From assembly GCA_002790835.1 (NCBI GenBank), contig PFVX01000083.1:1-64000 (forward strand): DNA of 64,000 bases, in the 5' to 3' direction. The notes under the pieces were generated by a model that saw nothing but the letters and a program-made list of their open reading frames with translations, was not told the DNA's origin and did no database searches. The position numbers and the translations under genes were made by a program. This DNA comes from a bacterium CG_4_9_14_3_um_filter_65_15. Its GTDB lineage: Bacteria; Krumholzibacteriota; Krumholzibacteriia; LZORAL124-64-63. How positions within the stretch are numbered: the stretch's first letter is position 1; each line of letters starts with the position of its first letter. Of the stretch, positions 15,356 to 28,564 are shown one piece after another.

Positions 15356-16150
15356 ATGAGAAAACAACTGCAAATTTTCGTTATGATCACGGCGTTCTGG
15401 GCTTGCTCCTCACCGGCCCAGGAACCTCCTGTGCAACCGGAGGCCCATCGCACAGCATCCTGCCGGATGTGCCACCAGGGCGGAGTCGCGGCTTCTGCCG
15501 CACGCGGCACGGCACTCAACGGAACCTGCCTGGGCTGCCACGAAGGTACGGCTCCGGTTCAGACCGGAACCACGAACATCCATGGCCCCGATCGGCAGGA
15601 CTGCCTGACCTGCCATCACTTCCACCAGACCGACCTGGTGAACACCACTCAAGGTCAACTCGCCCCCGGTTCACCGGGACCGAGTTCGGGCCACTGCCGG
15701 AGTTGCCACAGCCCCGAAGGCCGTCTCAGTCAGGTCAGCGAAGCCCACCGCATGGCGGCGACCCTGTACCACAGCGCAGGGGCCGAACTGCGCCGCACAT
15801 CCCCTTCGCAAGCATGCCTGCGCTGCCATGACTCCACTTCCGCATCTCCATGGCAGAGGCAAACCGCAGGCACCCTGACCCTCAACACCCACGCCAGCCA
15901 CCCCTTCGGCGTGAAGGTGGTTGCGGGCCAGGGCAACAGCGTCGATCACATCCGCTGGGATCCGGACTCGCGATTGCCCCTCTTCGACGGCCGCATGGAA
16001 TGCCAGAGCTGCCACCTGCTCTCCTCCGGCACCGACGACGACCTGATCGCCTACACGAATCCCTACGATCTCTGCCTGGGATGTCACGAACACGATCCGG
16101 GATCGGGATGGGGAACGACCGACATGGTGGCCACCATGGTCAGGCGCTGA
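15356..16150 (+). CDS. Heptahaem c-type cytochrome
   Basis: 264 aa with seven CXXCH haem-attachment motifs: CRMCH, CLGCH, CLTCH, CRSCH, CLRCH, CQSCH, CLGCH. Hydrophobic leader at residues 5-15; the FWACSS sequence could be a lipobox, although Trp is unusual there. The protein is therefore exported and either periplasmic or anchored. It is the only plus-strand gene of the cytochrome region. Its TGA abuts the TGA of the convergent hexahaem gene (TGATCA at the junction), so there is no room for a separate terminator. Probably an electron carrier feeding the conduit encoded on the other strand; partner assignment is inference. Confidence 0.85.
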   Translation: MRKQLQIFVMITAFWACSSPAQEPPVQPEAHRTASCRMCHQGGVAASAARGTALNGTCLGCHEGTAPVQTGTTNIHGPDRQDCLTCHHFHQTDLVNTTQGQLAPGSPGPSSGHCRSCHSPEGRLSQVSEAHRMAATLYHSAGAELRRTSPSQACLRCHDSTSASPWQRQTAGTLTLNTHASHPFGVKVVAGQGNSVDHIRWDPDSRLPLFDGRMECQSCHLLSSGTDDDLIAYTNPYDLCLGCHEHDPGSGWGTTDMVATMVRR

Positions 16151-17194
16151 TCAACCGCCCATCATGCCGCTGTGGCACTTGCGGCACAGGGGATCCTGGT
16201 TGGGATCCGGATAGGGATTCGGCAGGGGATACGACCCCGACACCACGCCGTCCTGCCCCAGGGTATCGACGTTGAAATCCCAACGACCCGCGTGGGGCCC
16301 CGATGTGGCGTGGGCCCGGTGGCAGCTCAGGCACATGACCCGGCTCGAGGTGCTCGGCCCGGCCGTGCCCGACACCGTCGTGGATGGGTCCTGGAAGGGG
16401 ACTTCCGGCAGGTAAGCGGTGGATGCATCCCCGCCGAAAGAATCGGCCGTCCCGTTATAGCGGTTGTATCGCGTGGCAAAGCCGCTGGGCAGGGTCTCGT
16501 CGGTGGGGTGTTCGAACCCCCCGGTCTCGTTGTGGTCGTTCAGATAATCCCCATGGCAATTCCCGCACCAGTTGCTGACCCCTGCCTGATAGGCGATGTG
16601 GTTGTCGGGCCTTTCGGACGAACCATCGAAGGGAATCCCAGCGGCCTCATAGGCGGGGTAGAGGAAAACCGCGCCGTCCACCGGTTGGTCCGGCCCGCGG
16701 AGGAAGCGGTAGCTCGTGTTTCCGTGGGGATCGTGGCAACTGGTGCATCCCAGCTGCCCGGACGGGAAGCTCCCCCCCGGCGAATTCAGATACGAGCCGT
16801 CAGCCGAGAGCCCGTGCCCCGGAGCGTCGATGTTGTGGCCTGCGGCATCGCCACTGATGGGGTTGAGGACACCGTCGGCGCCGTCGTTGAGGTTGTCCTC
16901 CCACAGGAAGACGAAGTTGCCCGCGCCGCGTTCGGGCGGCGGCGCCAGAGGATCGGTTCCGAGGACGGCTCCATATGTTTCGGCATGGCAGGCAAGGCAG
17001 ACATCGCTGGCCGATTCCTCCAGGAGCAGCCCGTCGCCGGAGCCCACCAGGCTTTGACCGTGCATGTCGTGGCAGTAGTTGCAGGCCGCCACGCCCCCGC
17101 CATGCACTTCGGCGAAGACCGGCCGGGTGACCAGCACCAGGGAGCAGCAGAACAACAGCCCCCTCATCCACGTTTTCTGCCCAGCCGTGCTCAT
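16151..17194 (-). CDS. OmcS-like hexahaem cytochrome, paralogue 1 (putative nanowire subunit)
   Basis: 347 aa, six CXXCH motifs: CNYCH, CLACH, CTSCH, CGNCH, CLSCH, CRKCH. Signal peptide ends PVFA, and the mature chain starts EVHGGGVAAC. Motif order and spacing parallel Geobacter OmcS as I recall it: GGVA-C-x2-CH-xMH, AAGHN, SPGGSFP, CTSCHDPHG, WCGNCHGD, YNRYNG, CLSCHRAHATS and a C-terminal C-x2-CH. It is clearly paralogous to the protein at 26022-27068 (shared ADPLAPP, GAGNFVFLWEDNLNDG-like and APGHGLSAD blocks). OmcS polymerises into extracellular filaments with closely stacked bis-His haems, so a filament role is plausible but unproven. It is the last gene of the minus-strand conduit operon, 24 bases after the 16-haem gene. 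Confidence 0.85.
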   Translation of the reverse strand: MSTAGQKTWMRGLLFCCSLVLVTRPVFAEVHGGGVAACNYCHDMHGQSLVGSGDGLLLEESASDVCLACHAETYGAVLGTDPLAPPPERGAGNFVFLWEDNLNDGADGVLNPISGDAAGHNIDAPGHGLSADGSYLNSPGGSFPSGQLGCTSCHDPHGNTSYRFLRGPDQPVDGAVFLYPAYEAAGIPFDGSSERPDNHIAYQAGVSNWCGNCHGDYLNDHNETGGFEHPTDETLPSGFATRYNRYNGTADSFGGDASTAYLPEVPFQDPSTTVSGTAGPSTSSRVMCLSCHRAHATSGPHAGRWDFNVDTLGQDGVVSGSYPLPNPYPDPNQDPLCRKCHSGMMGG

Positions 17195-17218
17195 CTCAAG
17201 AATATCCTTCCCCCATCC

Positions 17219-18445
17219 CTATTTGTCGTGGCATTGCAAACACAGTTCCATATCGGGATTCAGGGGCAAGTACGGCGAGAATTTCGCTCCGTGCAATTGG
17301 TGGCAACTCATGCAGGTCACCTGTTCCTTGGTGCGTGGATCGATGACCTCGGGTCCCACCGGATGGGTTGACCGGTGAGCCTGCTCGTGACAGTCGACGC
17401 AAAGGCCGGAATCGGTCTTCACCAGCAGCCGCGGATTGTCCGCCCCGTGGGGACGATGGCAATTCACGCAGTCCATCCCGTCGTGGGTGATGAACTCCTC
17501 CTTCTTCCTGCCCTCCCGGTCCCCGAAGTGGCAACCCAGGCAGAGCTTGACCTGGGATTTCAGCAGGAGGTCCGGCGAGTTGGAAGCGTGGGGGTTGTGG
17601 CACGAGGCGCAGGACTCCTCGGTGTTCATGATATGAGGGAATTCTGCCTTTTGGCCGGGAGCCACGGCCCGGTGACAACCCAGGCACAACTCGCCCACCG
17701 ATGTCGTCAGGGCGAAGGAGCCCCCCGAATCCAGATTCCCATGGCACCGCGAGCACTGCCCCGCGGCGAAAGGCTGGTGCTGGTTGGTCCGCAACAACCC
17801 CTTTCCGGAGGAAGCGTGCGGGTCATGGCAGGCCGTGCAGTCAGTACCGGCCATGGAACGGCCGGCATGGGCGCGATCGAGCTTCGCCCCCCCGTCGTGA
17901 CACTCCATGCATAGTCCGGGCACCGCGGTTTTCAGCAGGCCCTCCACGGTTCCGCCGTGGGGCACGTGGCAATCCGTGCAGTCCCCGGCCGCAACCGGGT
18001 CATGCACCACCTGCCGTTGCACCCACTGGCCGGCCTCCTCATGACAGCCGGCGCACAACTGGGCAGTCGCCGCCACGGTGTTGGCCGCATAGGCGCTGCC
18101 GTGGGGGTCGTGGCAACTGGTGCACTCCCCCAGGGCGACCGGCCGGTGCGGAGCCGGGAGATCTCCCAAACCCTGCATGTCGTCATGACACTTCAAGCAA
18201 AGGGCGCCCACATCGGACCGCAGCAGGGCGGCGTGACGCGAGGCGTGGGGATTGTGGCACGATGAACATTCCCCGTCGGCGAACGCCGTGTGGACGTGGG
18301 CACGCTGGAAGGCTTCCTCGAGTTCGCTGTGGCATTCCAGGCAGACCTTCGGCTGATCCACGGCGGCCGGAGCGCCATGTCCGAGGACCGGGTTGAGGGC
18401 CGCGATCCAGACCACCAGGGCAGAGGGAATCAATCGGTACCTCAT
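17219..18445 (-). CDS. 16-haem c-type cytochrome (paired-CXXCH repeats)
   Basis: 408 aa with a signal peptide (about residues 1-23) and sixteen CXXCH motifs. The motifs come in pairs about 20-25 residues apart. One of each pair is usually followed by DPHG, NPHA or a similar PH sequence, the other is an LCLxCH type. This is the doubled-CXXCH repeat architecture of large periplasmic or outer-membrane cytochromes. Its start overlaps the stop of the 26-haem gene (ATGA), so the two should be made together. Extra His residues in the HP and PHG positions can supply distal ligands. Likely an electron conduit or reservoir; direction of flow is not determinable. Confidence 0.9.
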   Translation of the reverse strand: MRYRLIPSALVVWIAALNPVLGHGAPAAVDQPKVCLECHSELEEAFQRAHVHTAFADGECSSCHNPHASRHAALLRSDVGALCLKCHDDMQGLGDLPAPHRPVALGECTSCHDPHGSAYAANTVAATAQLCAGCHEEAGQWVQRQVVHDPVAAGDCTDCHVPHGGTVEGLLKTAVPGLCMECHDGGAKLDRAHAGRSMAGTDCTACHDPHASSGKGLLRTNQHQPFAAGQCSRCHGNLDSGGSFALTTSVGELCLGCHRAVAPGQKAEFPHIMNTEESCASCHNPHASNSPDLLLKSQVKLCLGCHFGDREGRKKEEFITHDGMDCVNCHRPHGADNPRLLVKTDSGLCVDCHEQAHRSTHPVGPEVIDPRTKEQVTCMSCHQLHGAKFSPYLPLNPDMELCLQCHDK

Positions 18446-20448
18446 TCCTCACCTCCCTGTACGCCTGCGGGATGGCACATGGCACAGTCTCGACCGGCGA
18501 ACGGATCATGACGGTTGGGCAGTATGAGGCCCGCTTCATCGGACACATGGGGATCGTGACACTCGGTACAGTTCAAGCCCGCACCGGACCGACCCAGATG
18601 GGCGTCCAGGAAATCCTCGTCCTCGCCATCGTGACATTCCAGGCACAAGGTGGCGACCTCCGCTCTCAAAAGAGCCGGATGGTCCGTGCGATGGGGATCA
18701 TGGCAGGTCAGGCACTCGCCGTCGGCTGCCGGCGGATGGACATGGTCGCCCTGCAACTGCTCGCGGAGTTCCCGATGACAATTGAAACAGAGTTCCGGGG
18801 CATTTTCCGCCAGCAAGGCCTTCAGCCGACCGCCGTGGGGCAGATGACAGGAGGTGCAGGCGCTCTGGACTAACGGCTTGTGGACACTGCCGCCGGCCAC
18901 CGGGGCAGACTCCATGTCGTCGTGACAGTCCCGGCACAGGTCGCCCTGGGGTTTGACCAGCATGCCCGGCTCCATGGAACCGTGCGGCTGGTGACACTGG
19001 GTGCAGTCGTCGTCTTCCATGGGCGGATGGGCGACATCGCCTTCCATGTCGGTGCGCACCTGTTCATGGCAAGTGAGGCAGGTCTCCGCCCCCTTACGCT
19101 GCAAAAGCGCGGGCTGCGTCGATTGGTGGGGAAGATGGCAATCCAGGCACTGGCCCCGAACCACCGGCTGGTGGGTCTGGGTCAAGGTCAGCCATTCTTC
19201 CGGCTCGTCGTGACAATCCTGGCAAAGGGCCTTGACCGAACCGCGCACCAGACCCGCCTCCTGTGTTCCATGGGGATCATGGCAAGACAGGCATTCGCCA
19301 TCGGCGAAGGGAGAATGCACCGAGACCGCATCCTCCGCAGGGGTCGTATTCTCATGGCAACGGGAGCACAGCTGGGTTCCCGATTCGGCCAGCAAGTGGT
19401 CCGCGACCTTGCCGTGGCCCCTGTGGCAGGCCAGGCAATCCTTGCGGGCGGGATCGTGGGGATGGGCGGAGTTCACCTTATCCCCGATGTCGTCGTGGCA
19501 CTCCAGGCAAGCCGTGCCGACCGAGGCCGGCAGCAGATGTTCGCCCGTGGCCGCGTGGGGAACATGGCAGGCCAGGCAATCCCCCTCGGCCACCGGATCG
19601 TGGGTTCCGGGGGGCGCCAGCTCGCCCAGGTCGTGACATTCCATGCACATCGCTTCAGCCGAATCGGCATTCAAGGCCAGGGGATCGTCGGCCTCCGGCC
19701 CGGCATGGCAGGATGTGCACTCCCCATCGGTCATCGGGGGGTGGCTGGACCGCCGCATCAAACCGCCGGAGTCGGAAGAGTGGGGCGTGTGGCAACCCAG
19801 GCAATCCCGGCCGGCCAGGTCGAAGCCGTCATGGGCTGCGACCAGCTTCTTCTGCTTGGCGTCGTGGCACCGGGCGCAGAGCGCGTCCGGTTCGTCGACC
19901 AGCAGGTGCGGGTGATCGCTGCCGTGGATCTCATGGCACGCTGCGCAACCATCCTTGGCCAAAGGAGCATGATGGTGGGAGCGTTCGAACGGCTCGGCGT
20001 CGTGACACAGGAAGCAGGCTTGATCTCCGTCGGCGGCCAGCAGATTCGGAAAATCCGTGCCGTGAGGGTCGTGGCAGGCATCGCAGCGGCCCTGGGCAAC
20101 CGGCCCGTGCAGGTTTCCCCTCGCCAGACCCAGGTCGGCTTCCTGGTGGCACAGCAGGCACAGCTGGCGGCCCGTCTCCTTCAGTCGCAGGGCCCCGACC
20201 AGACCGTGGGACTTGTGGCAGCTCTGGCATTCCTTGTCGGCCACCGGTTTGTGGGGCCGCGAACCGACCTGGAAATCCTTCTCATGACAACTCAGGCAGT
20301 CGCCCTTCTTGCTGAAGCGACGTCCCCGCTGGATCTGGGCGTCCGCGGCGGCGACATCCAGCAGGAGCGCCCCGATTGCGATCAACAGGACCCCGGTCAT
20401 CCAGCTCCCGCCTCGTCGGAATTCCCTGGCCCGGACCGGAATCCTCAT
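18442..20448 (-). CDS. 26-haem c-type cytochrome (paired-CXXCH repeats)
   Basis: 668 aa with 26 CXXCH motifs. The ATG at 20448 overlaps the parvulin gene's stop (ATGA); open frame continues upstream but inside that gene. A hydrophobic leader at about residues 18-36 ends AAADAQ. The rest is roughly 13 repeats of about 48 residues, each with a GECxSCHDPHG-type site and an LCxxCHD-type site. Nearly all non-haem sequence is linker, giving about one haem per 25 residues. It is coupled by ATGA to the 16-haem gene. Such a string could span the periplasm or act as a haem wire; exact location is unknown. Confidence 0.9.
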   Translation of the reverse strand: MRIPVRAREFRRGGSWMTGVLLIAIGALLLDVAAADAQIQRGRRFSKKGDCLSCHEKDFQVGSRPHKPVADKECQSCHKSHGLVGALRLKETGRQLCLLCHQEADLGLARGNLHGPVAQGRCDACHDPHGTDFPNLLAADGDQACFLCHDAEPFERSHHHAPLAKDGCAACHEIHGSDHPHLLVDEPDALCARCHDAKQKKLVAAHDGFDLAGRDCLGCHTPHSSDSGGLMRRSSHPPMTDGECTSCHAGPEADDPLALNADSAEAMCMECHDLGELAPPGTHDPVAEGDCLACHVPHAATGEHLLPASVGTACLECHDDIGDKVNSAHPHDPARKDCLACHRGHGKVADHLLAESGTQLCSRCHENTTPAEDAVSVHSPFADGECLSCHDPHGTQEAGLVRGSVKALCQDCHDEPEEWLTLTQTHQPVVRGQCLDCHLPHQSTQPALLQRKGAETCLTCHEQVRTDMEGDVAHPPMEDDDCTQCHQPHGSMEPGMLVKPQGDLCRDCHDDMESAPVAGGSVHKPLVQSACTSCHLPHGGRLKALLAENAPELCFNCHRELREQLQGDHVHPPAADGECLTCHDPHRTDHPALLRAEVATLCLECHDGEDEDFLDAHLGRSGAGLNCTECHDPHVSDEAGLILPNRHDPFAGRDCAMCHPAGVQGGEE

Positions 20449-22154
20449 GACCCTGACTCCTCGGAGGGATTGAAGTATTTTTTGATCCTGTCCTCGTGGC
20501 GGACGATGGTGGAACGGGATTTCAACTTGTCCAGCAATTCGTCCAGACGGTCGTTGAACTTCTCCTGGTAGATGACCTTGCGGATGTCCATCTCCACATC
20601 CTCCAGGGGCGGCGGAGTCCCGGGCCTCTGATCGGCCAGCTGGAAGACCATCCAACCCATGGGCATCTCCACAGCCTGGCTGCTCTGCCCCACCTGCATG
20701 TTTTCCAGCTGGTCACGGAACGGTTTGGACAACTGATCCGTGCTGATGTAGGCCGACTTGCCGGGGGTAAAATCGGTGTTGGGGTTGTTAAGCCCGAACA
20801 CAAAGCCGAAGTCCGCGCCGGCCGCGAGTTTTTGGGAGGCCTCCTTGGCCTGGGCCTCGTCGTCGAGAATCAGAATCTCCAGCCGGACCTCGTCGGGACC
20901 ACGGAAGCGATCCAGGTTCTTCTGGTAGAACTCCTCGAACTCCCCCTTCTTGAACGTGATGCGGGAGGCGACGGCGTCGTTGAGATAGGCCTGGATGAGA
21001 AGCTGTTCCCAATCGGTGTCCACCCGTTTCTGGACGTCCGCCCGCTCCGGGTACCCTTCCTGGGAAGCCAGATACCCCAGCACCAGGCCGCGCTTCTTTT
21101 CCGTGCGCGCGGCGGCCATGATCGCGGCGAAGGGTCGGGAGTTGTCCGTCATGGCTTCGTGGGAAACGGCCTTGCGCAACTCCGCCTCGGTGACCACCGG
21201 GCCGTCGGCAAGGAAAAGCACCGGTCGCGCACTCTCGCCGACGAAGGATCCCTGGAGTACCTGGGCCGAATCGGCCGCGATGGCGAACAGGGCGTTCATG
21301 TCCTCGTTCACCGGCACCTTGGCCATGGTCCGGGCGAGGAACGCGTCCCAGTCCCGCTGCCTCAGGATTCCCAGAACGGCGGCCGCGGACTTGTCGTGGA
21401 CCTTGGCGAAGGATTCCTCGTCCACAGGGGTGCGTTGTTCCACCCGCACGAAGGTGAAGGATTCCCGGAAAGGGAACACGGGGGAGATGTCCCCCACCCC
21501 GAGGGTCCGCACCTGGTCACGCAGGACGTTTTCGATGTCGGCCCAGTGCAGAAGTTTGAACAAACCGCCGTTGAGCTTCTTGGTGTCCAGTGACACCGCT
21601 CGGGCCAGGGAATCCATGTCCGCCCCCGCCAGCACCTCGGCCCGCAACTGCTCGGCTTCCTCGCGCGTGCGCACCGAGACCTGACGCAGCTGGATCCGCC
21701 AGTAGTAGCGGTCGAAGAAGGCCCGCACCGAATCCTCCGGGGCCGACTCGCGGTAGGTGAAGTTGTCCTTCACGTAGGCCTGGATGGCGTACTGCCGCTC
21801 CTTGTCCGCCGCGAATTCCAGCACCTCGGGTTCCTGGTCCATACCGGAGGCCAAGGCATCCTGCAGCAGGAGCAGGTCGTTCACCCGCTTTTCCAGGTAG
21901 CGATAGACCAGCCCCTGGCCGCTCGCCGCCAACTTCCCGCTCTGATGGGCTTCCAGCACCATGGCATCCAGATCGGCAACGGTGATGGGATCCTCGTTGA
22001 CGAGGATCAGGGTGTCCCCGGGCGCTTGCTCCTGTGCGACGACGGGTGATGTCGCAACCAGGAGGACCAGCAATGCCGACAGAAAAACCCAGCCACCCAT
22101 CGGACGTCGTTTGTTGCCGATGGTGACGGAGCGGAGCATCGAGTTGCAGATCAT
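20445..22154 (-). CDS. Periplasmic double-parvulin peptidyl-prolyl isomerase (SurA/PpiC-like)
   Basis: 569 aa. Signal peptide at about residues 22-41 (ends VVAQ), a helical SurA-N-like region beginning ILVNEDPITVADLD, then two parvulin-like domains at about residues 148-245 (QLRQVSVRTREEAEQL...) and 415-515 (RLEILILDDEAQAKEA...). Lys/Arg-rich C terminus. It is ATGA-coupled on both sides, to the lipoprotein gene upstream and to the 26-haem cytochrome downstream. This placement suggests a dedicated chaperone for the cytochromes or barrel of this locus. Prolyl isomerases are known beside Geobacter nanowire cytochrome genes (recalled knowledge). Catalytic activity of the parvulin domains cannot be judged. 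Confidence 0.8.
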   Translation of the reverse strand: MICNSMLRSVTIGNKRRPMGGWVFLSALLVLLVATSPVVAQEQAPGDTLILVNEDPITVADLDAMVLEAHQSGKLAASGQGLVYRYLEKRVNDLLLLQDALASGMDQEPEVLEFAADKERQYAIQAYVKDNFTYRESAPEDSVRAFFDRYYWRIQLRQVSVRTREEAEQLRAEVLAGADMDSLARAVSLDTKKLNGGLFKLLHWADIENVLRDQVRTLGVGDISPVFPFRESFTFVRVEQRTPVDEESFAKVHDKSAAAVLGILRQRDWDAFLARTMAKVPVNEDMNALFAIAADSAQVLQGSFVGESARPVLFLADGPVVTEAELRKAVSHEAMTDNSRPFAAIMAAARTEKKRGLVLGYLASQEGYPERADVQKRVDTDWEQLLIQAYLNDAVASRITFKKGEFEEFYQKNLDRFRGPDEVRLEILILDDEAQAKEASQKLAAGADFGFVFGLNNPNTDFTPGKSAYISTDQLSKPFRDQLENMQVGQSSQAVEMPMGWMVFQLADQRPGTPPPLEDVEMDIRKVIYQEKFNDRLDELLDKLKSRSTIVRHEDRIKKYFNPSEESGS

Positions 22155-23215
22155 GGTGACCTTTCTTGTTCCTGCAGCGGCAGGTTGTTTTGCAGATCCT
22201 TCACGAATTCATCACACATGACCGAAACCAGGTCGGTCAGAGCATGGACCCGGCTCTGTTGAAACCAACCTTCGTGGTCATTCCCGGCCTTTGCCAGTTC
22301 CCGGGCCAGGAACACTCGCCCGGTGCGGGCGTCCAAAACACGCAGACCAAGTGCCGCGCGGGGAACACTGGTGATCTGATCTCCTACAGCCTGATTCAGG
22401 ACATCCACCGTGCCGGTGGCCACGGCTACGAGGGAGTAGCTGCGACCCAGGTCCAGCAAATTCTCTCGATCGACGGCTCCGCGGTAGGCCGTCTCGCGGA
22501 CCAACTGTCGCGTGCGGATGAATCCCGGCTCCAGGACATCGTATCCGGCCTTCATCAGGCTGGTGACCAGGATCCCGCTGCAAACAGCCCCCGCGTTGTC
22601 CGACTCCGAAAGGTTGTCCAGGGCGACGACGGCGATTCGAGGACCGGCGGCGGAAGGGAGACCCGGTTCCGGCAACGGCAACAGACCCGTCAAGGCCGCA
22701 TCCACCAGGTCGGTTCCCAGGGTGGCCAGGGAATCAACGCGCCCCATGCCAAGCCAGCCGACCCGACCCTCACCCGTGCGCCCCAGGCTGATCGAGCGAA
22801 CCAGGGTCCCGGTCGCCGGATCCAGCACCCGCAGGGACAGGCCCAGTTCGGGGGCAGGCGGCGCGCCGTACACATCCCAGGAGCCCGTCAGGAGAAAATC
22901 CAGGTCCAATTCCGCAGCGAGTTGGCGGGCATCGGCGTCGCCGATCATGCCGCGGCTGCGGATCCGGTTCCGGCGCAGGACCGGCCGCAGGGAATCGCCG
23001 GCGATCACCGTCAACCCGGAGGCGGTGAGCCCCTCCAGAAGCAGGGGCCGCAACAGATTCGCCGCGACGTCGCTCCGGCAATTGTTTGCGAACGGCAGGA
23101 CCCCAATGCGGATGCGGGCGGCCGACGGGGCGGTCCCGGCCGGGCGGTTCCCCGTCCCTGCACAACCGGCCCAGAGTACCGGCAGCACCAGGATCATCCA
23201 CAGTGCAGGCTTCAC
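22151..23215 (-). CDS. Lipoprotein with tandem CsgG/GNA1162-like domains
   Basis: 354 aa from a GTG at 23215, chosen because AGGAG lies nine bases upstream; a longer frame would overlap the preceding gene. The hydrophobic leader ends LWAGC, a probable lipidation site. Two similar domains follow, each starting with a strand like IGVLPFANN or IAVVALDNLSES, then a helix, LxVLDPxTG or LRVLDARTG, and a closing helix. This is the pattern of CsgG/GNA1162/TolB-N-like outer-membrane lipoproteins. CsgG forms the curli export pore, but the membrane hairpins cannot be confirmed here. It overlaps the parvulin start by ATGA. Confidence 0.65.
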   Translation of the reverse strand: MKPALWMILVLPVLWAGCAGTGNRPAGTAPSAARIRIGVLPFANNCRSDVAANLLRPLLLEGLTASGLTVIAGDSLRPVLRRNRIRSRGMIGDADARQLAAELDLDFLLTGSWDVYGAPPAPELGLSLRVLDPATGTLVRSISLGRTGEGRVGWLGMGRVDSLATLGTDLVDAALTGLLPLPEPGLPSAAGPRIAVVALDNLSESDNAGAVCSGILVTSLMKAGYDVLEPGFIRTRQLVRETAYRGAVDRENLLDLGRSYSLVAVATGTVDVLNQAVGDQITSVPRAALGLRVLDARTGRVFLARELAKAGNDHEGWFQQSRVHALTDLVSVMCDEFVKDLQNNLPLQEQERSP

Positions 23216-23232
23216 ACGCAACTTCTCCTGCC

Positions 23233-23802
23233 TCAATCGAGCAAGGTGCCGAGGCACTTGTCAAGGCACTTGCGGGTGACTTCCCCGCGCGAGGCCTGGC
23301 TGGTTCCCAGTAGCGAGGACCAAAAGCCCTGGCTGTCCTCCGATTGGGTGACCGACCACACCGTTTCGCCCGTCTCGGTCTCCACCAGCCGCAGCACGAC
23401 CGTCACCACGCTGACGTTGTTGGAGCCGCTGCGGACCGAGGCCGATTCGCTCACCGAACCCAGGAACAGGCCCTGGACGCCCAGTTCCCGCCCCACCTGG
23501 GTGATCTGGTCCCGGGTCAACTCCGCCGTGCGGATCACACCCACCTTGCTCAAGGCGTTGGCCACCTCGCCCGGTTCGGCCACGGTGAAAGATTCGCTGG
23601 CCAGCAGCGAGTTGACCAAATAACGCGTGGCCCTGGCGCCGGCCCCTTGCTCTCCCGAGAGATTCTCGAAGGGAACGACTCCGACCTTCTCGATGAAGGA
23701 GAAATCGAATTCGGGATGGATGAACCTCTCTCCCCCCGTACCCCCGCAACCGGCGCAGAACAGCAGCAGCCCCAGTATCAGATATCCCTTTTTCTTCGTC
23801 AT
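23233..23802 (-). CDS. Lipoprotein, single CsgG/GNA1162-like domain
   Basis: 189 aa from ATG 23802 (MTKKKGYLI), the start that gives a normal lipoprotein signal with lipobox LFCAGC. The domain starts VGVVPFENLSGEQG and contains LRLVETETGETVWSV, the same layout as each half of the neighbouring 354-aa lipoprotein, so the pair looks like a duplication family. At under 200 residues it is shorter than CsgG and may lack a full pore-forming insert. It lies between the barrel gene (19-base gap) and the tandem-domain lipoprotein, all inside the cytochrome operon. Confidence 0.65.
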   Translation of the reverse strand: MTKKKGYLILGLLLFCAGCGGTGGERFIHPEFDFSFIEKVGVVPFENLSGEQGAGARATRYLVNSLLASESFTVAEPGEVANALSKVGVIRTAELTRDQITQVGRELGVQGLFLGSVSESASVRSGSNNVSVVTVVLRLVETETGETVWSVTQSEDSQGFWSSLLGTSQASRGEVTRKCLDKCLGTLLD

Positions 23803-23821
23803 ACTCGCCGCCTGTCCGGAT

Positions 23822-25891
23822 TCAGAACGTGGCCCTAAATCCCTGTTGAATGGAAACGGTCTTGGCACCGCCACCTCCCGTCAAATCCACCTGGGCGATC
23901 CTCAGGTAAAGATAACTGCGCCTGTTCAGATCCAAGTTCAGATTGAGGCTCCACCGCCTGCTGGTGACCACCCCGTCGGTCCGCAAATCGTAGGCTTGCC
24001 CGGATAGCTTCAACGAGGGCAACACGTTCCACCCCAGAAGGATATCACGAATCACCGATTCGCTTCTCTCCGAAACTCCCTGGATACTCATCCGCATGGA
24101 GAGATTCGACCCCGGCCGCCAGTCCACACCGGCGGTGCCCGTGCGACGCAGGCGAATTCCCGGTTCGCTTGCCGTGGTGCTTTCCTGGTAACGTGCCAGC
24201 AAGGACAGCTGAAGATTGCGCCGCAGAGACGACTCCAATCCCGCCTGGTTGAACCAGCTGTCGACAATCCGGTCGACCAGCAGATCATTGCTGCGGGACA
24301 GGCCCTGACTGAGCCTTGCATCCAACCCCGGCAGCAAGGCCAGGTTGTTGTCCAGGCTCGCGCTGCGGATGTCACGGGAGGCCGCCCCGTTCAGATCAGA
24401 ATTCCGCTGGCTGGCGGACAGGGCCCCCCACCAGCCGGGAGCGGGCTTGAAGATCATGGTGTAGCCGAGGGACACTTCCTGCTGAGTTGCCTCGTCCCCG
24501 TTGCCCTGCTGGTCGGAATATTCCAGCCGCAGATTGTGGGCCAGGACGGCCGACGGAGTGAAACCCAGTCGCCAGCCCAGGCCGGTCCGGGTTCGGTCAC
24601 CTTCGGTGCCCATGATTTCGCTGTGCTGCAGGGACGCGTCGAGGCTGCTCTCCCACCGTTCGGAAAAACGATAGGCCGCCCGACCGTCGAACAGATTGAT
24701 GGCCGAAATCCGTCGCTGGTGGCCCATGGCCGCGCGCTGACGCAAAGCATCCACCTCGGTGACGAAAATCTCCGCGATCTGGTTCAGCCCAGCGTTGACC
24801 ACCTTGATGTAACGCCGGTCGACGGCGGAAAAGGTGATCTCGTAACGGTTCAAGGCCGGGTTGAAGACCTGACCCGGGAAAGATGTCCACAGTTCCCAGG
24901 TGAGGTTGTCTTCGGAGATATAGACCTGCCAGGTGACCTGGTCCCCCGACGGCCGGTCGGTGTAGACGTAGATCGCACCCACCGGCAAAGGCGCCCCCAG
25001 GTCCAAGCCCAGGTTGATGTCGATGTTGCCCCCGCCGATGTCGATGGCCGGGTCGGTGGCATCGGTGGTGTTGCCGTCGATCAAGCCGGACACTTCGTCC
25101 AGAGGGTCCAGATCCGGGCCGTCGTCCCGGGCATAGAGACCGGCGGTGGCGGGGGTACGTTCCAGCACCACGCCCCCGGAAAGGACCTCGTCATTCTGGT
25201 CCTGGTACTGGGAAGACAAACTGCCGGTCAGAGTCAGGCGGCCGTCAGCCCCACTCCCCCGTTGTCCGCTCCAGCGCAGCGTGTGCCGGCGGTTGACCGA
25301 CGAAAGGCCGCTGATGACGTTTTCGCTTGCGAGCCGGGAGAATTGGTAGGAATAGGTGCTGCCATTGCGCCCGTAATCGGCCCCGGCCTGGAAGCGCCTG
25401 TTGCGGATATTCTGGGCCTCCGGCTGGTCCGGATAGAATGTGTGCTGGTCGCCGTAGCTCAACCTGACCAAAGGCAGGTTGGTGTCCACGGATTGGGCCT
25501 GGAACTGCAGGTCTCGGGTGACGATGGCCGCGTCGTTGCTGGTGGTCACGCGACGGCGGGAGCCCGTGGCGCCGAACAGGAAGAGGGGATTGCGCCAGCG
25601 CAGATTTCCCGAGGGCAGGATTTCTTCCCGATAAGTGCCCAGGGTGAGATCCAGGTCCTGGTCGAAGCGGTAGTATCTCAATCCCAGGTCCAGGTCCAGC
25701 CGGGGCGCCAGGGACTTGCGGAAGGTGCCGTTGAATTCCTGCCGAAAAGTATCCTGTTTGCGGGCGTCGATCTCGGATTGGACCCGGGCCAGGTCCACGA
25801 ATCCCCCGAAAGGACTGAAGGCAGACGCCTGGGCGTCGTGCCGCGCGCACAATGCCAGGATGACGAGGATGCCGGCCAGGATGCGATTCAC
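23822..25891 (-). CDS. Outer-membrane beta-barrel with discoidin-like insert (putative porin of the cytochrome conduit)
   Basis: 689 aa from GTG 25891, with GGAG five bases upstream; a TTG at 25906 is less well supported. Signal peptide ends AQASA. Alternating amphipathic strands rich in Tyr/Arg/Ser fill the N-terminal ~250 and C-terminal ~300 residues, and the chain ends in Phe (GFRATF), the classic barrel-assembly signal. Between them, about residues 270-390, is a soluble domain (INLGLDLGAPLPVGAIYVYT, WQVYISEDNLTWELW, RRYIKVVNAG) that resembles F5/8-type-C or discoidin folds. Being surrounded by cytochrome genes, it fits the porin of a porin-cytochrome complex. It is not a recognisable MtrB sequence by eye. 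Confidence 0.7.
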   Translation of the reverse strand: MNRILAGILVILALCARHDAQASAFSPFGGFVDLARVQSEIDARKQDTFRQEFNGTFRKSLAPRLDLDLGLRYYRFDQDLDLTLGTYREEILPSGNLRWRNPLFLFGATGSRRRVTTSNDAAIVTRDLQFQAQSVDTNLPLVRLSYGDQHTFYPDQPEAQNIRNRRFQAGADYGRNGSTYSYQFSRLASENVISGLSSVNRRHTLRWSGQRGSGADGRLTLTGSLSSQYQDQNDEVLSGGVVLERTPATAGLYARDDGPDLDPLDEVSGLIDGNTTDATDPAIDIGGGNIDINLGLDLGAPLPVGAIYVYTDRPSGDQVTWQVYISEDNLTWELWTSFPGQVFNPALNRYEITFSAVDRRYIKVVNAGLNQIAEIFVTEVDALRQRAAMGHQRRISAINLFDGRAAYRFSERWESSLDASLQHSEIMGTEGDRTRTGLGWRLGFTPSAVLAHNLRLEYSDQQGNGDEATQQEVSLGYTMIFKPAPGWWGALSASQRNSDLNGAASRDIRSASLDNNLALLPGLDARLSQGLSRSNDLLVDRIVDSWFNQAGLESSLRRNLQLSLLARYQESTTASEPGIRLRRTGTAGVDWRPGSNLSMRMSIQGVSERSESVIRDILLGWNVLPSLKLSGQAYDLRTDGVVTSRRWSLNLNLDLNRRSYLYLRIAQVDLTGGGGAKTVSIQQGFRATF

Positions 25892-25946
25892 CGGTTCTCC
25901 AAACAACGGGTAACCATGAAAATGGGTACCCGGCCCCCAATCGTGA

Positions 25947-25980
25947 TCCGACGCCCGGGCGGTTAAACCCGGGCGTCGGA
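25947..25980. terminator. Strong hairpin between the OmcS-like gene and the barrel gene
   Basis: A perfect 13-base inverted repeat (TCCGACGCCCGGG and its complement) with an 8-base loop. No T-run follows on the minus strand, so it is probably not a simple terminator. A partial terminator or RNA-stability element that gives more of the upstream hexahaem message than of the downstream conduit genes would fit the position. Confidence 0.6.
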
Positions 25981-26021
25981 AAGTTTACCACAATAATATC
26001 TCTCGATCCCTGGGTTTCAAC

Positions 26022-27068
26022 CTAGGGAGCGATCGTGTCGAAGGCGTCCTTGTTGTGGCACTTGTTGCACAGCGAGCGCTGGTTCGGGCTGGCATAGGGA
26101 TCGGGGATCGCGTACGAACCCGATATCGCGCCGTCCTCTTCCAGCAGGGTCACGCTGAAGTCCCAGCGACCGGCGTCCGGAGCCGAGCTGGCGTGGGCGC
26201 GGTGGCAGGTGATGCAGGACACCTGGCTGCCGGCGCCGGGGCCAGCGGTGCTACTGGTGGTGTTGGCCGCATCCTCGAAGGGAACCTCGGCCAGGTAGGC
26301 CGAGGCGGCGAGGCCACCGGTCTGATCTTCGGTGCCATTGTACTGGTTGTAGGTCTGGGCGATGGTCCCACCCAGGGTTATGCCCGAGGGGTGGATCAGC
26401 TTGGTGCCGTTGGCATGGAAGTCGCCGTGGCAGTTGCCGCACCAGGCCGACATGCCGCCCTTATAGGCGGTATGGCTGGTCTGGGACTCGGAACCGAAGA
26501 AAACAGCCAGACCCTCGGCGTCGGGGGCCGGGTTGGTAAAGTTCGCGATCCCGCCCTGGACCACGCGACCGGCGCCGTACAGGAACCGGAAGTCGCTGGT
26601 GCCGTGGGGATCGTGGCAGCTCGTGCAGCCCATGGCGCTGGCGGGGAAGGATCCGCCCGGTGATGTGGTGAGGGTTTCGTCCGCTTGCAGCCCGTGACCG
26701 GGGGCGTTCAGGTTGTGGCCGGCGGCGTCGCCACCGATGGGGTTGCTGGCCCCGCCATGGCCGTCGTTCAGGTTGTCTTCCAACAGGAACACGAAGTTAC
26801 CGGCACCCTTCATGGCCGGGGGGGCCAGAGGATCGGCGCCCAGGGGTTTGTCCAGGTGGTCGTGGCAGGCGATGCAAACGTCGCTGGGCGTGGCGTCGAC
26901 GAGCAGCCACGGGTTGCCGTTGGGGCTGTCGGGATCGACGAGTTGGCCGTTCTGGCTGTTGTGCATGGTGTGGCAGCCGTTGCAATGGGCAACGCCGCCA
27001 TCATGGAATGCGAGGGCCGTGCCGGCGATGAAGCAGAGCCCCAGGGTGATGACAAAAGTCTTCCTCAT
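26022..27068 (-). CDS. OmcS-like hexahaem cytochrome, paralogue 2 (putative nanowire subunit)
   Basis: 348 aa, six CXXCH motifs: CNGCH, CIACH, CTSCH, CGNCH, CITCH, CNKCH. Signal peptide ends TALA, and the mature protein begins FHDGGVAHCNGCHTMHNSQ, nearly the start I recall for Geobacter OmcS. Further shared landmarks are AAGHN, SPGGSFPA, CTSCHDPHG, GMSAWCGNCHGDFH, the IAQTYNQYNG block, ASAYLAEVPFE, CHRAHASS and the terminal RSLCNKCHNKD. It is shorter than OmcS by about 80 residues. OmcS assembles into conductive extracellular filaments; conservation of all six motifs makes that role plausible here. ATGA-coupled to the NHL gene; a GGAGG site lies seven bases before its ATG. Confidence 0.9.
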   Translation of the reverse strand: MRKTFVITLGLCFIAGTALAFHDGGVAHCNGCHTMHNSQNGQLVDPDSPNGNPWLLVDATPSDVCIACHDHLDKPLGADPLAPPAMKGAGNFVFLLEDNLNDGHGGASNPIGGDAAGHNLNAPGHGLQADETLTTSPGGSFPASAMGCTSCHDPHGTSDFRFLYGAGRVVQGGIANFTNPAPDAEGLAVFFGSESQTSHTAYKGGMSAWCGNCHGDFHANGTKLIHPSGITLGGTIAQTYNQYNGTEDQTGGLAASAYLAEVPFEDAANTTSSTAGPGAGSQVSCITCHRAHASSAPDAGRWDFSVTLLEEDGAISGSYAIPDPYASPNQRSLCNKCHNKDAFDTIAP

Positions 27069-28195
27069 GTTGATGCCTCCGAAGAGATTCTGACCAAAGT
27101 TCGAAGCCCGGTATGGGCCCCGGGAAAAGTCGGGCGATAAGGTGATGTTGAGGACCTCCTTGGACTTGAATAAACGGCCCCGGAAGCGACCCCGTCGCTC
27201 CCGATGTCCGCATTCGGTTCAGGGTTGATGGAAGCTGCCCCGACCACATTCGTGCGGACGAAGTCGGGCAGCTCGACGATTTGGATGCGATTGGAGAAAA
27301 TCTGGCCCACGACCGCGGATTCGGGGCCGTTGAGGGCGAGCAGGGACGGGTTGATGAACCAGCCGGGGGACAATCCCTTGCCGCCGAATTCACCCAGGAA
27401 ACGGCCTTCAGGGCTGTAACAGACGATGCAGAACCGATTCTTGTCCAGGACCAGGTAATTGCCCTGTTCGGTCCGCTGCACCGCCACGGGGAAGGCCAGG
27501 GCACCGGGCTTGGAACCCCCGTGACCCACTGCGCCCAGGAAGCGGCCGCCGGTGTCATAGCGCATGACGAATCCCGATGTGGAAACCGGGAGCAGGAATT
27601 CGCCGCGATCCCAGACCAACTGCCCCAGTCCGGACACACTGGTGGTGTCGTCGGCCAGTTGGGGGGACAGGTCGCAAACGACCCGCCAACCGTTCGTGAT
27701 GTCCAGGATGCGAGCGCCCCGGTCATCGAGGCCGTAAAGGCGGCCCCGGTCGTCGCAGGCCAAGTGGGTCAGCGTGACATTCTTTCCGGCGAGGGTCGCG
27801 GGAATGGAAAAACGCTCCAGGGCCAGCCCGTCAAAATCGAAACGTTGCAGCACGCGGCCTGCCTGGCTGGACCCCAGAACATAAATGGAGCCATCAGGAT
27901 CGGTCACCAAATCCAGAGGGCTGGTTATGGAATCACCCAATCCGAAGGCGAAACGGAAGGCGCCGGCCGCCGAAAAAATGACGATGCGGTTGTGCCCGGG
28001 GTCGGCGACCAACAGTTCCCCATGCACTCGGTCAAAATGCATGGCACTGGGACGCACGATACCGTCCCCTTGCCCGGGGACACCGAGGTCGCGCACGAAG
28101 ACGGCAGGAACGGACATTCCCTCCTGGGCCGTTGCCGGGGAGGCTCCAGCCAGGAGAATCGCCGTTACCATCAGTGTGGATTTGACTGCCGTCAT
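27065..28195 (-). CDS. NHL-repeat beta-propeller protein, secreted
   Basis: 376 aa from ATG 28195 (GGAG nine bases upstream), giving a signal peptide that ends SPATAQ. Repeats such as PSAMHFDRVHGELLVADPGHN, SPLDLVTDPDGSIYVLGSS and LACDDRGRLYGLDD match NHL or SMP-30-like propeller blades. The last ~45 residues (SSPRRSSTSPYRPTFPG...) are low-complexity and unlike the propeller. Propellers of this kind bind proteins or ligands. NHL genes are, as I recall, regular neighbours of omcS-type cytochromes. It is the promoter-proximal gene of the minus-strand conduit operon and overlaps the OmcS-like gene by ATGA. Confidence 0.75.
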   Translation of the reverse strand: MTAVKSTLMVTAILLAGASPATAQEGMSVPAVFVRDLGVPGQGDGIVRPSAMHFDRVHGELLVADPGHNRIVIFSAAGAFRFAFGLGDSITSPLDLVTDPDGSIYVLGSSQAGRVLQRFDFDGLALERFSIPATLAGKNVTLTHLACDDRGRLYGLDDRGARILDITNGWRVVCDLSPQLADDTTSVSGLGQLVWDRGEFLLPVSTSGFVMRYDTGGRFLGAVGHGGSKPGALAFPVAVQRTEQGNYLVLDKNRFCIVCYSPEGRFLGEFGGKGLSPGWFINPSLLALNGPESAVVGQIFSNRIQIVELPDFVRTNVVGAASINPEPNADIGSDGVASGAVYSSPRRSSTSPYRPTFPGAHTGLRTLVRISSEAST

Positions 28196-28240
28196 GCTCA
28201 ACAACTCCGCTGCCCTCGTTGCCCGCCTCTGCGGGGGCAC

Positions 28241-28490
28241 TGGTTAACTGTTTAACATCAGGAGAAAGATATCACAGGAATGTCATGTGATACAAGAATT
28301 ATTTTTCAAAATCCCGGAATTTAATGAAAAAGGTGTACTTATTCATTTATATTCAATCGTGAAACTATAGAATTACCTCATTCATCTCGTGCATTTCGAG
28401 AGTCTCATTGACCAAAAATTTAAAGAATACCTTTAATATCGGGGATTATGCAACGGGAATCTGTTAATTGAGAGTCAGGGTCAACAGAAA
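28241..28490. other. AT-rich intergenic region
   Basis: No gene is visible. The stretch is markedly AT-rich against its GC-rich surroundings, as expected for a regulatory region. It contains the candidate promoter/operator at 28266-28295 and a small GTTAA repeat near 28243-28256. It separates the cytochrome operon from the secDF terminator. Confidence 0.5.
28266..28295 (-). promoter_or_regulatory. Candidate promoter with overlapping operator palindrome for the cytochrome operon
   Basis: On the minus strand, TTGTAT (28295-28290) and TATCTT (28271-28266) are separated by 18 bases. The inverted repeat TATCACA-N9-TGTGATA (28270-28292) lies across the spacer and both boxes. A transcript would start near 28258, about 63 bases before the NHL-gene ATG. 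A regulator bound there would block polymerase. Its identity is unknown; the half-site order is opposite to a CRP site. Confidence 0.4.
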
Positions 28491-28493
28491 AGG

Positions 28494-28539
28494 AAAAACC
28501 CGGAAGAAAGCCCAAATATGGGTGCTCTTCCGGGTTTTT
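28494..28539 (-). terminator. Rho-independent terminator after secF
   Basis: A perfect 14-base inverted repeat (AAAAACCCGGAAGA / TCTTCCGGGTTTTT) with a loop that can itself pair (CCCA/TGGG). T5 ends the minus-strand copy, and the A5 start makes it usable in both directions. It lies 26 bases after the secF stop. Confidence 0.9.
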
Positions 28540-28564
28540 GAACCACCAAGGTTCGGCAAGGCTG

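Follow-up and report, generated by a model that had tools for sequence, protein, structure and literature searches.

The 64,000-nucleotide stretch of DNA analysed here (the window; contig PFVX01000083.1, bacterium CG_4_9_14_3_um_filter_65_15) carries ten adjacent open reading frames (ORFs), g1–g10, at positions 15356–28195. Judged by gene content and gene order, this locus, from a bacterium of the Krumholzibacteriia, is very probably an operon of the osc type for the assembly of nanowires. The name osc denotes the omcS-companion operon of Geobacter sulfurreducens, GSU2501–GSU2493, as described in PMC13194489 and PMC12977616. The operon reported here is a nearly complete copy of that machinery already described in Geobacter.

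Correspondence with the Geobacter osc operon

In PMC13194489, OscC is the hexahaem protein GSU2501, OscI is GSU2495 and OscJ is GSU2494. The eight-gene block GSU2500–GSU2493 always follows GSU2501 (PMC12977616). The letters D to K were given to positions on the basis of these three identities and the fixed order. The Geobacteraceae loci L049–L051, plus L079, which continues one of them, served as the comparison set, and their order is OmcS, OscC, OscD, OscE, OscF, OscG, OscH, OscI, OscJ, OscK and a second hexahaem cytochrome.

Profiles of the relatives of the window genes match every Geobacteraceae osc gene except OscD, one to one. Specifically, the matches are to OscC (E=1.6e-89), OscE (best E=6.7e-30), OscF (E=4.4e-48), OscG (E=5.3e-49), OscH (E=2.5e-69), OscI (26 haems in both, E about 1e-205), OscJ (16 haems in both, E=3.8e-118), a 299-residue propeller downstream of the 16-haem OscJ (E=8.7e-24, profile of g10 relatives), and a counterpart of g2 downstream of OscK (E=1.2e-39). 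The preliminary description of this DNA had pointed to NHL and prolyl isomerase genes as the recurring company of omcS; both are present, and the picture was incomplete in that the whole operon corresponds to the osc cluster.

The first gene of the operon, g10 (OscK; 27065–28240, minus strand, ATG at 28195), encodes an NHL beta-propeller with a signal peptide, and a Pfam NHL match bears out the propeller recognized earlier. An assignment of g10 as OscD was rejected, as OscD orthologues are a different propeller of 470–490 residues to which g10 shows weak likeness (E=0.003–0.03).

Hexahaem cytochromes and the absence of OscD

The candidate nanowire subunit is g9 (26022–27068, minus strand), a hexahaem OmcS-type cytochrome with six CXXCH motifs. 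A second hexahaem OmcS-type cytochrome, g2 (16151–17194, minus strand), is the last gene of the operon. Both proteins align with OmcS (6ef8; E=5e-42 for g9 and E=3.5e-20 for g2), in agreement with the OmcS relationship proposed earlier, and both retain all six CXXCH motifs and six further histidines, giving 12 candidate haem-ligand histidines. The OmcS reference in this alignment is consistent with the PDB alignment over the segments that bear the ligands. The histidine that OmcS donates to a neighbouring subunit, which we take to be His16, the histidine of the CHTMH motif, is present in g9, g2 and all aligned homologues except one. In the OmcS filament, which has a rise near 48 Å, the 12 histidine ligands comprise 11 from a subunit itself and one from its neighbour (PMC6584659).

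The exceptional homologue, which lacks the His16 equivalent, is an OmcS-like protein of L048, a Nitrospira sp. metagenome-assembled genome (MAG) that also carries an OscI-OscJ-OscK block. A third OmcS-like paralogue in the genome of the window, on contig C61 (26079–27056; L002:1387-2484), has an extra, seventh CXXCH near its N-terminus. The roughly 1.4 kb around it contain no osc genes, and the protein clusters with L027 and the Acidobacteriota locus L030.

The inter-subunit histidine bears on an alternative in which the operon secretes a monomeric or short hexahaem surface electron carrier, polymerization having arisen later in the Geobacter OmcS branch. The OscC type is present in all 12 Geobacter genomes that carry the cluster, whereas OmcS is missing from some of them, and the cluster may, in the view of the authors, predate nanowires (PMC12977616); in our tree, too, the Geobacter OmcS/OscC duplication postdates the split from the lineage of the window. 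The conserved CHTMH histidine argues against such a carrier, because a sixth distal ligand would be partnerless in a monomer, provided that the haems are coordinated as they are in OmcS, and we regard this alternative as doubtful.

Several observations weigh against the assignment of the locus as an osc-type nanowire operon. In the tree, Geobacter OmcS and OscC form one clade separate from the proteins of the window. The two split within the Geobacter lineage, and g9 is therefore a co-orthologue of OmcS and OscC alike, with no closer tie to OmcS, the proven wire. Polymerization is known for OmcS only, not for OscC (PMC12977616), and it is a matter of dispute whether cells need OmcS wires physiologically (PMC11077965; PMC13194489). 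Furthermore, an OscD orthologue is absent from the locus, where the g9–g8 gap is 115 bp, and from the genome as searched with the OscD of L005.

The nearest relative, L004, is also without OscD. An OscD profile seeded from Krumholzibacteriota, Calditrichota and related loci matches Geobacteraceae OscD (E about 1e-41), and in many relatives OscD lies between the hexahaem gene and the barrel gene. Its distribution is patchy: about a dozen loci outside Geobacter have it, a comparable or greater number, in which the barrel and hexahaem genes are still neighbours, lack it, and it is missing from all Acidobacteriota loci in which OmcS and barrel genes are adjacent. Because about half of the loci that are conserved in other respects do without OscD, we treat it as accessory and not as defining. 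The comparison yields a testable point, namely that OscD is dispensable in nature.

Probable folding and export genes

In Geobacter, PMC13194489 and PMC12977616 assign OscH to folding, OscE, OscF and OscG to secretion, and OscD to morphology. The OscH counterpart, g5 (20445–22154, minus strand), is a predicted periplasmic prolyl isomerase chaperone; its double parvulin, noted earlier, is confirmed by matches to PF00639 (residues 162–239) and PF13145 (residues 405–521).

Two CsgG/GNA1162-like lipoproteins had likewise been described, and both are recovered. OscG (g6; 22151–23257, minus strand) is modelled with two tandem CsgG/PelC/GNA1162-like domains; its AlphaFold2 model has a predicted local distance difference test (pLDDT) score of 86.8, and Foldseek matches it to GNA1162 (1.6e-8), PelC (8e-8) and also CsgG. 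OscF (g7; 23233–23874, minus strand, likely ATG at 23802) is an LpoB/CsgG-like lipoprotein that exceeds the Pfam cut-offs for both LpoB and CsgG.

OscE (g8; 23822–25906, minus strand) is predicted to form a barrel in the outer membrane, built of about 28 strands and ending in Phe (AlphaFold2 pLDDT 88.1, predicted template-modelling score 0.63); the preliminary description had already named a barrel and its terminal Phe. A discoidin-like insert (about residues 247–391) comes after strand 11 and includes a PF22633 match at residues 276–369 that is below cut-off; from strand parity, the insert would face outside. The computed Cα diameter of the 28-strand barrel is near 50 Å, and therefore the lumen would measure about 40 Å, which would nearly equal the width of an OmcS wire. 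Since OscE, OscF and OscG of the Geobacter cluster serve secretion, OscE is taken to be primarily a secretion component.

OscI, OscJ and the conduit question

OscI (g4; 18442–20448, minus strand) is a 26-haem, doubled-CXXCH cytochrome of 668 residues with CXXCH motifs spaced 23–28 residues apart. Its most likely start is the ATG at 20448, which overlaps the g5 stop and has GAGGAG upstream; a longer start at TTG 20655 was dropped in favour of it. GSU2495 also carries 26 haems (PMC12977616), and the count is exactly 26 in nearly all complete copies of OscI, the exceptions being truncated or fused, and one with 25. OscJ (g3; 17219–18445, minus strand) is a doubled-CXXCH cytochrome with 16 CXXCH motifs. 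OscI and OscJ are fused in a single, complete 42-haem ORF in L043:4132-7266, and the same fusion occurs in the Krumholzibacteriota locus L036:7530-10607, where it extends past the retrieved stretch. The fusion bears on the question of how nanowires are anchored and charged.

The doubled-CXXCH proteins show sub-threshold likeness to the NrfH, NrfB and DmsE families, which lends some support to a soluble periplasmic respiratory pathway (e.g. nitrite, dimethyl sulfoxide or tetrathionate reduction) that resembles a locus for extracellular electron transfer. We consider this highly improbable and rejected it, as the locus holds no catalytic subunit, a large outer-membrane barrel and lipoproteins predicted to form rings are conserved with the cluster, and the osc homology is one to one.

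The preliminary description had also proposed an outer-membrane conduit, which is supported in part. OscI is indeed MtrA-like, scoring above the DmsE/MtrA family cut-off (271.9 versus 192.2 bits) and matching the Mtr complex at its chain A, which the PDB table misnames (E=1.3e-19), and MtrB gives the best fold match to OscE among the matches listed; the barrel, however, is outside the MtrB family, and its orthologue is assigned to secretion. A search for a classical MtrCAB conduit found none: the MtrB/PioB family barrel PF11854 has no match in g8 or in the whole genome, and the MtrC/OmcA-type surface decahaem model TIGR03507 scores 39.8 against a cut-off of 209.3.

A different arrangement, in which OscE is both an exporter and a conduit holding part of an MtrA-like OscI/OscJ wire, so that the operon would itself pass electrons through the outer membrane into the nanowire base and replace a separate porin-cytochrome complex, is unlikely. 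The MtrA-like score of OscI, the occurrence of OscI and OscJ as one protein, the wide barrel and the genome's want of a PF11854 barrel fit such an arrangement. MtrB has the highest template-modelling score (TM-score) among the matches listed (0.43/0.46), Foldseek otherwise returning weak matches to general barrels. These TM-scores are below 0.5, however, at 8% sequence identity, Geobacter OscI and OscJ are listed as periplasmic in PMC13194489, and the conduit could be a DUF3373 barrel that is encoded at another place in the genome, next to an octahaem cytochrome. Somewhat more speculatively, and in our judgement rather unlikely, the operon might be an exporter with an electrical socket, in which OscI and OscJ, a single polypeptide in some relatives and constant in haem number across phyla, make up an uninterrupted periplasmic wire of 42 haems, MtrA-like, that plugs into the 28-stranded OscE barrel and charges the filament directly. 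If so, no separate porin-cytochrome complex would be needed.

Possible electron supply elsewhere in the genome

The DUF3373 barrel lies on contig C33 (L076:3146-6277), and its octahaem neighbour is related to the octahaem tetrathionate reductase 1sp3 (E=1.7e-61); the two are a possible separate porin-cytochrome pair. The genome also encodes CbcL-like cytochrome b fusions with the b domain C-terminal, one with 19 haems on C76 (L069:1508-4330) and one with 11 haems on C2 (L073:5108-7024), together with a NapC-type protein and a c3-like tetrahaem periplasmic candidate. Because these and other multihaem proteins are encoded, a route for electrons from quinol to the osc proteins is plausible in this genome. 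With quinol-oxidase-like and periplasmic cytochromes encoded away from the locus, the system is unlikely to be self-contained, as had been suggested. On contig C56 (L072:6199-11588), a 20-haem and a 49-haem cytochrome gene form a pair with a 4-base overlap; the 49-haem protein has 1216 residues in repeats of roughly 72 residues.

Locus layout and host

The ten ORFs were found where the preliminary description placed them and with the lengths it gave. Its total of 61 CXXCH motifs also stands, with 7, 6, 16, 26, 0, 0, 0, 0, 6 and 0 in g1–g10, compared with at most 0.36 per protein after shuffling. At the DNA level, 61 of the 62 CXXCH patterns in the window fall inside the locus (shuffles: mean 3.9, maximum 10). 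Genes g2–g10 form a tight operon on the minus strand, with ATGA couplings, as noted previously, at g10/g9, g6/g5, g5/g4 and g4/g3. On the opposite strand and convergent to the operon is g1 (15356–16150, plus strand), a cytochrome with seven CXXCH motifs; 7-haem homologues of g1 adjoin the cluster in the Calditrichota and Zixibacteria loci L017, L020 and L021.

Upstream, an AT-rich region (28241–28564, minus strand), presumed from its sequence to be the promoter region, separates the operon from a SecF-type gene. A promoter and terminator scan of the operon surroundings gave no match that decides the promoter and nothing decisive. Between the SecF-type gene and the operon, at 28485–28540, lies a GC-rich hairpin (itself at about 28493–28540) bordered by runs of A and T, which is likely a terminator.

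The host assembly comprises 3.39 Mb and is 95% complete. The hexahaem protein finds its best matches in MAGs of Krumholzibacteriia, with 83% for JANTFX bin10023, and the machinery tree nests the window inside Krumholzibacteriota with a support of 100; here and below, trees are from quick searches with Shimodaira–Hasegawa-like approximate likelihood-ratio test support only. The earlier guess of a host of the Fibrobacteres–Chlorobi–Bacteroidetes (FCB) type therefore holds, because Krumholzibacteriota are grouped with the FCB group (PMC9769843).

Distribution and apparent transfer of the subunit gene

The gene order is conserved, as anticipated, across loci from Krumholzibacteriota, Acidobacteriota, Calditrichota, Zixibacteria, Fibrobacterota, genomes labelled Gemmatimonadota and Geobacteraceae, with partial blocks elsewhere. 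OmcS-like genes are found in 27 of 80 Krumholzibacteriota genomes, mostly of one family. They co-occur with OscG-like genes in 21 of the 80 (8.4 expected, p=2e-10), and all ten Krumholzibacteriota genomes with a full-length OscG also have an OmcS-like gene.

The hexahaem proteins of Polarisedimenticola-type Acidobacteriota (L009:10001-11047 and L014:10001-11041) are 72–75% identical to that of the window and fall inside the Krumholzibacteriota clade (support 98). In contrast, the exporter and OscI genes of the same two loci group with other Acidobacteriota (support 100), at 22–42% identity to those of the window. Because the two sets of trees place these loci differently, it appears that Polarisedimenticola-type Acidobacteriota acquired the subunit gene from another phylum without its machinery. 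The subunit gene would then be swappable between phyla while the exporter stays.

The system had been described as lying outside its classical hosts. That is correct in so far as the host belongs to Krumholzibacteriota, but the machinery is reportedly already called 'widespread and ancient' in the title of Shen et al. 2025. A literature search of limited reach found no nanowire report for Krumholzibacteriota or Polarisedimenticola, which is weak evidence. What is new is the apparent machinery-free transfer of the subunit gene, the 42-haem fusion and the frequency of OmcS-like genes in Krumholzibacteriota; the interest lies in these, in the distribution and in the dispensable OscD, and not in a new kind of system. 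The osc machinery, with order and haem numbers intact, is extended to Krumholzibacteriota and to relatives in several little-studied phyla, and nanowire respiration may therefore be common in sediment bacteria.

Proposed mechanism

The genes, their homology and common order with a Geobacteraceae osc operon, the retained ligands, the folds and the co-occurrence are observed; from them we infer the following scheme of how filaments form and are exported, which way electrons flow and what accepts them. The hexahaem OmcS-type proteins (g9, perhaps g2) would be produced as periplasmic c-type cytochromes and folded or held by OscH (g5) through prolyl isomerization. Lipoprotein rings of the PelC/CsgG-like OscF and OscG (g7 and g6) would control passage through the wide OscE barrel (g8). 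Subunits may exit by this route and polymerize outside, each supplying a histidine ligand to a haem in its neighbour. OscI and OscJ would conduct electrons across the periplasm to the base of the filament, with OscK (g10) as an accessory propeller. Electrons would then pass along the filament to an external acceptor, e.g. an oxide of Fe or Mn, or to a partner cell.

Comparison with known systems

The locus resembles MtrCAB in the MtrA/DmsE-like sequence of OscI and in the wide OscE barrel, for which MtrB ranks first by TM-score among the matches listed. It differs in having 26 and 16 haems instead of 10, a barrel outside the MtrB family and no MtrC/OmcA-type surface decahaem.

Compared with the PelBC and CsgG exporters, OscG and OscF have PelC/CsgG-like folds and would be ring-forming lipoproteins beside an outer-membrane barrel; PelC, a structural match of OscG, forms a ring beneath the barrel in PelBC. 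In contrast to those exporters, OscG has two tandem domains, the osc cargo would be a haem protein and the locus contains no Pel or curli genes.

Like OmcS (6ef8/6nef), g9 is hexahaem and has all 12 histidine ligand positions, including the inter-subunit histidine. The window protein, a candidate for polymerization, is 41% identical to OmcS in the alignment, and its loops following haem 3 and preceding haem 6 are shorter.

The closest likeness in families and order is to the Geobacter osc operon. Relative to that of G. sulfurreducens, the window has the same families except OscD, plus hexahaem cytochromes, in the same E-F-G-H-I-J order and with the same haem numbers of 26 and 16. OscK stands at the front of the operon in the window but towards its end in Geobacteraceae, and the front holds one OmcS/OscC-type gene in the window but OmcS and OscC in Geobacteraceae. 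The convergent 7-haem gene and the different host phylum are particular to the window, whereas the second hexahaem cytochrome stands at the operon end just as in the Geobacteraceae locus L079.

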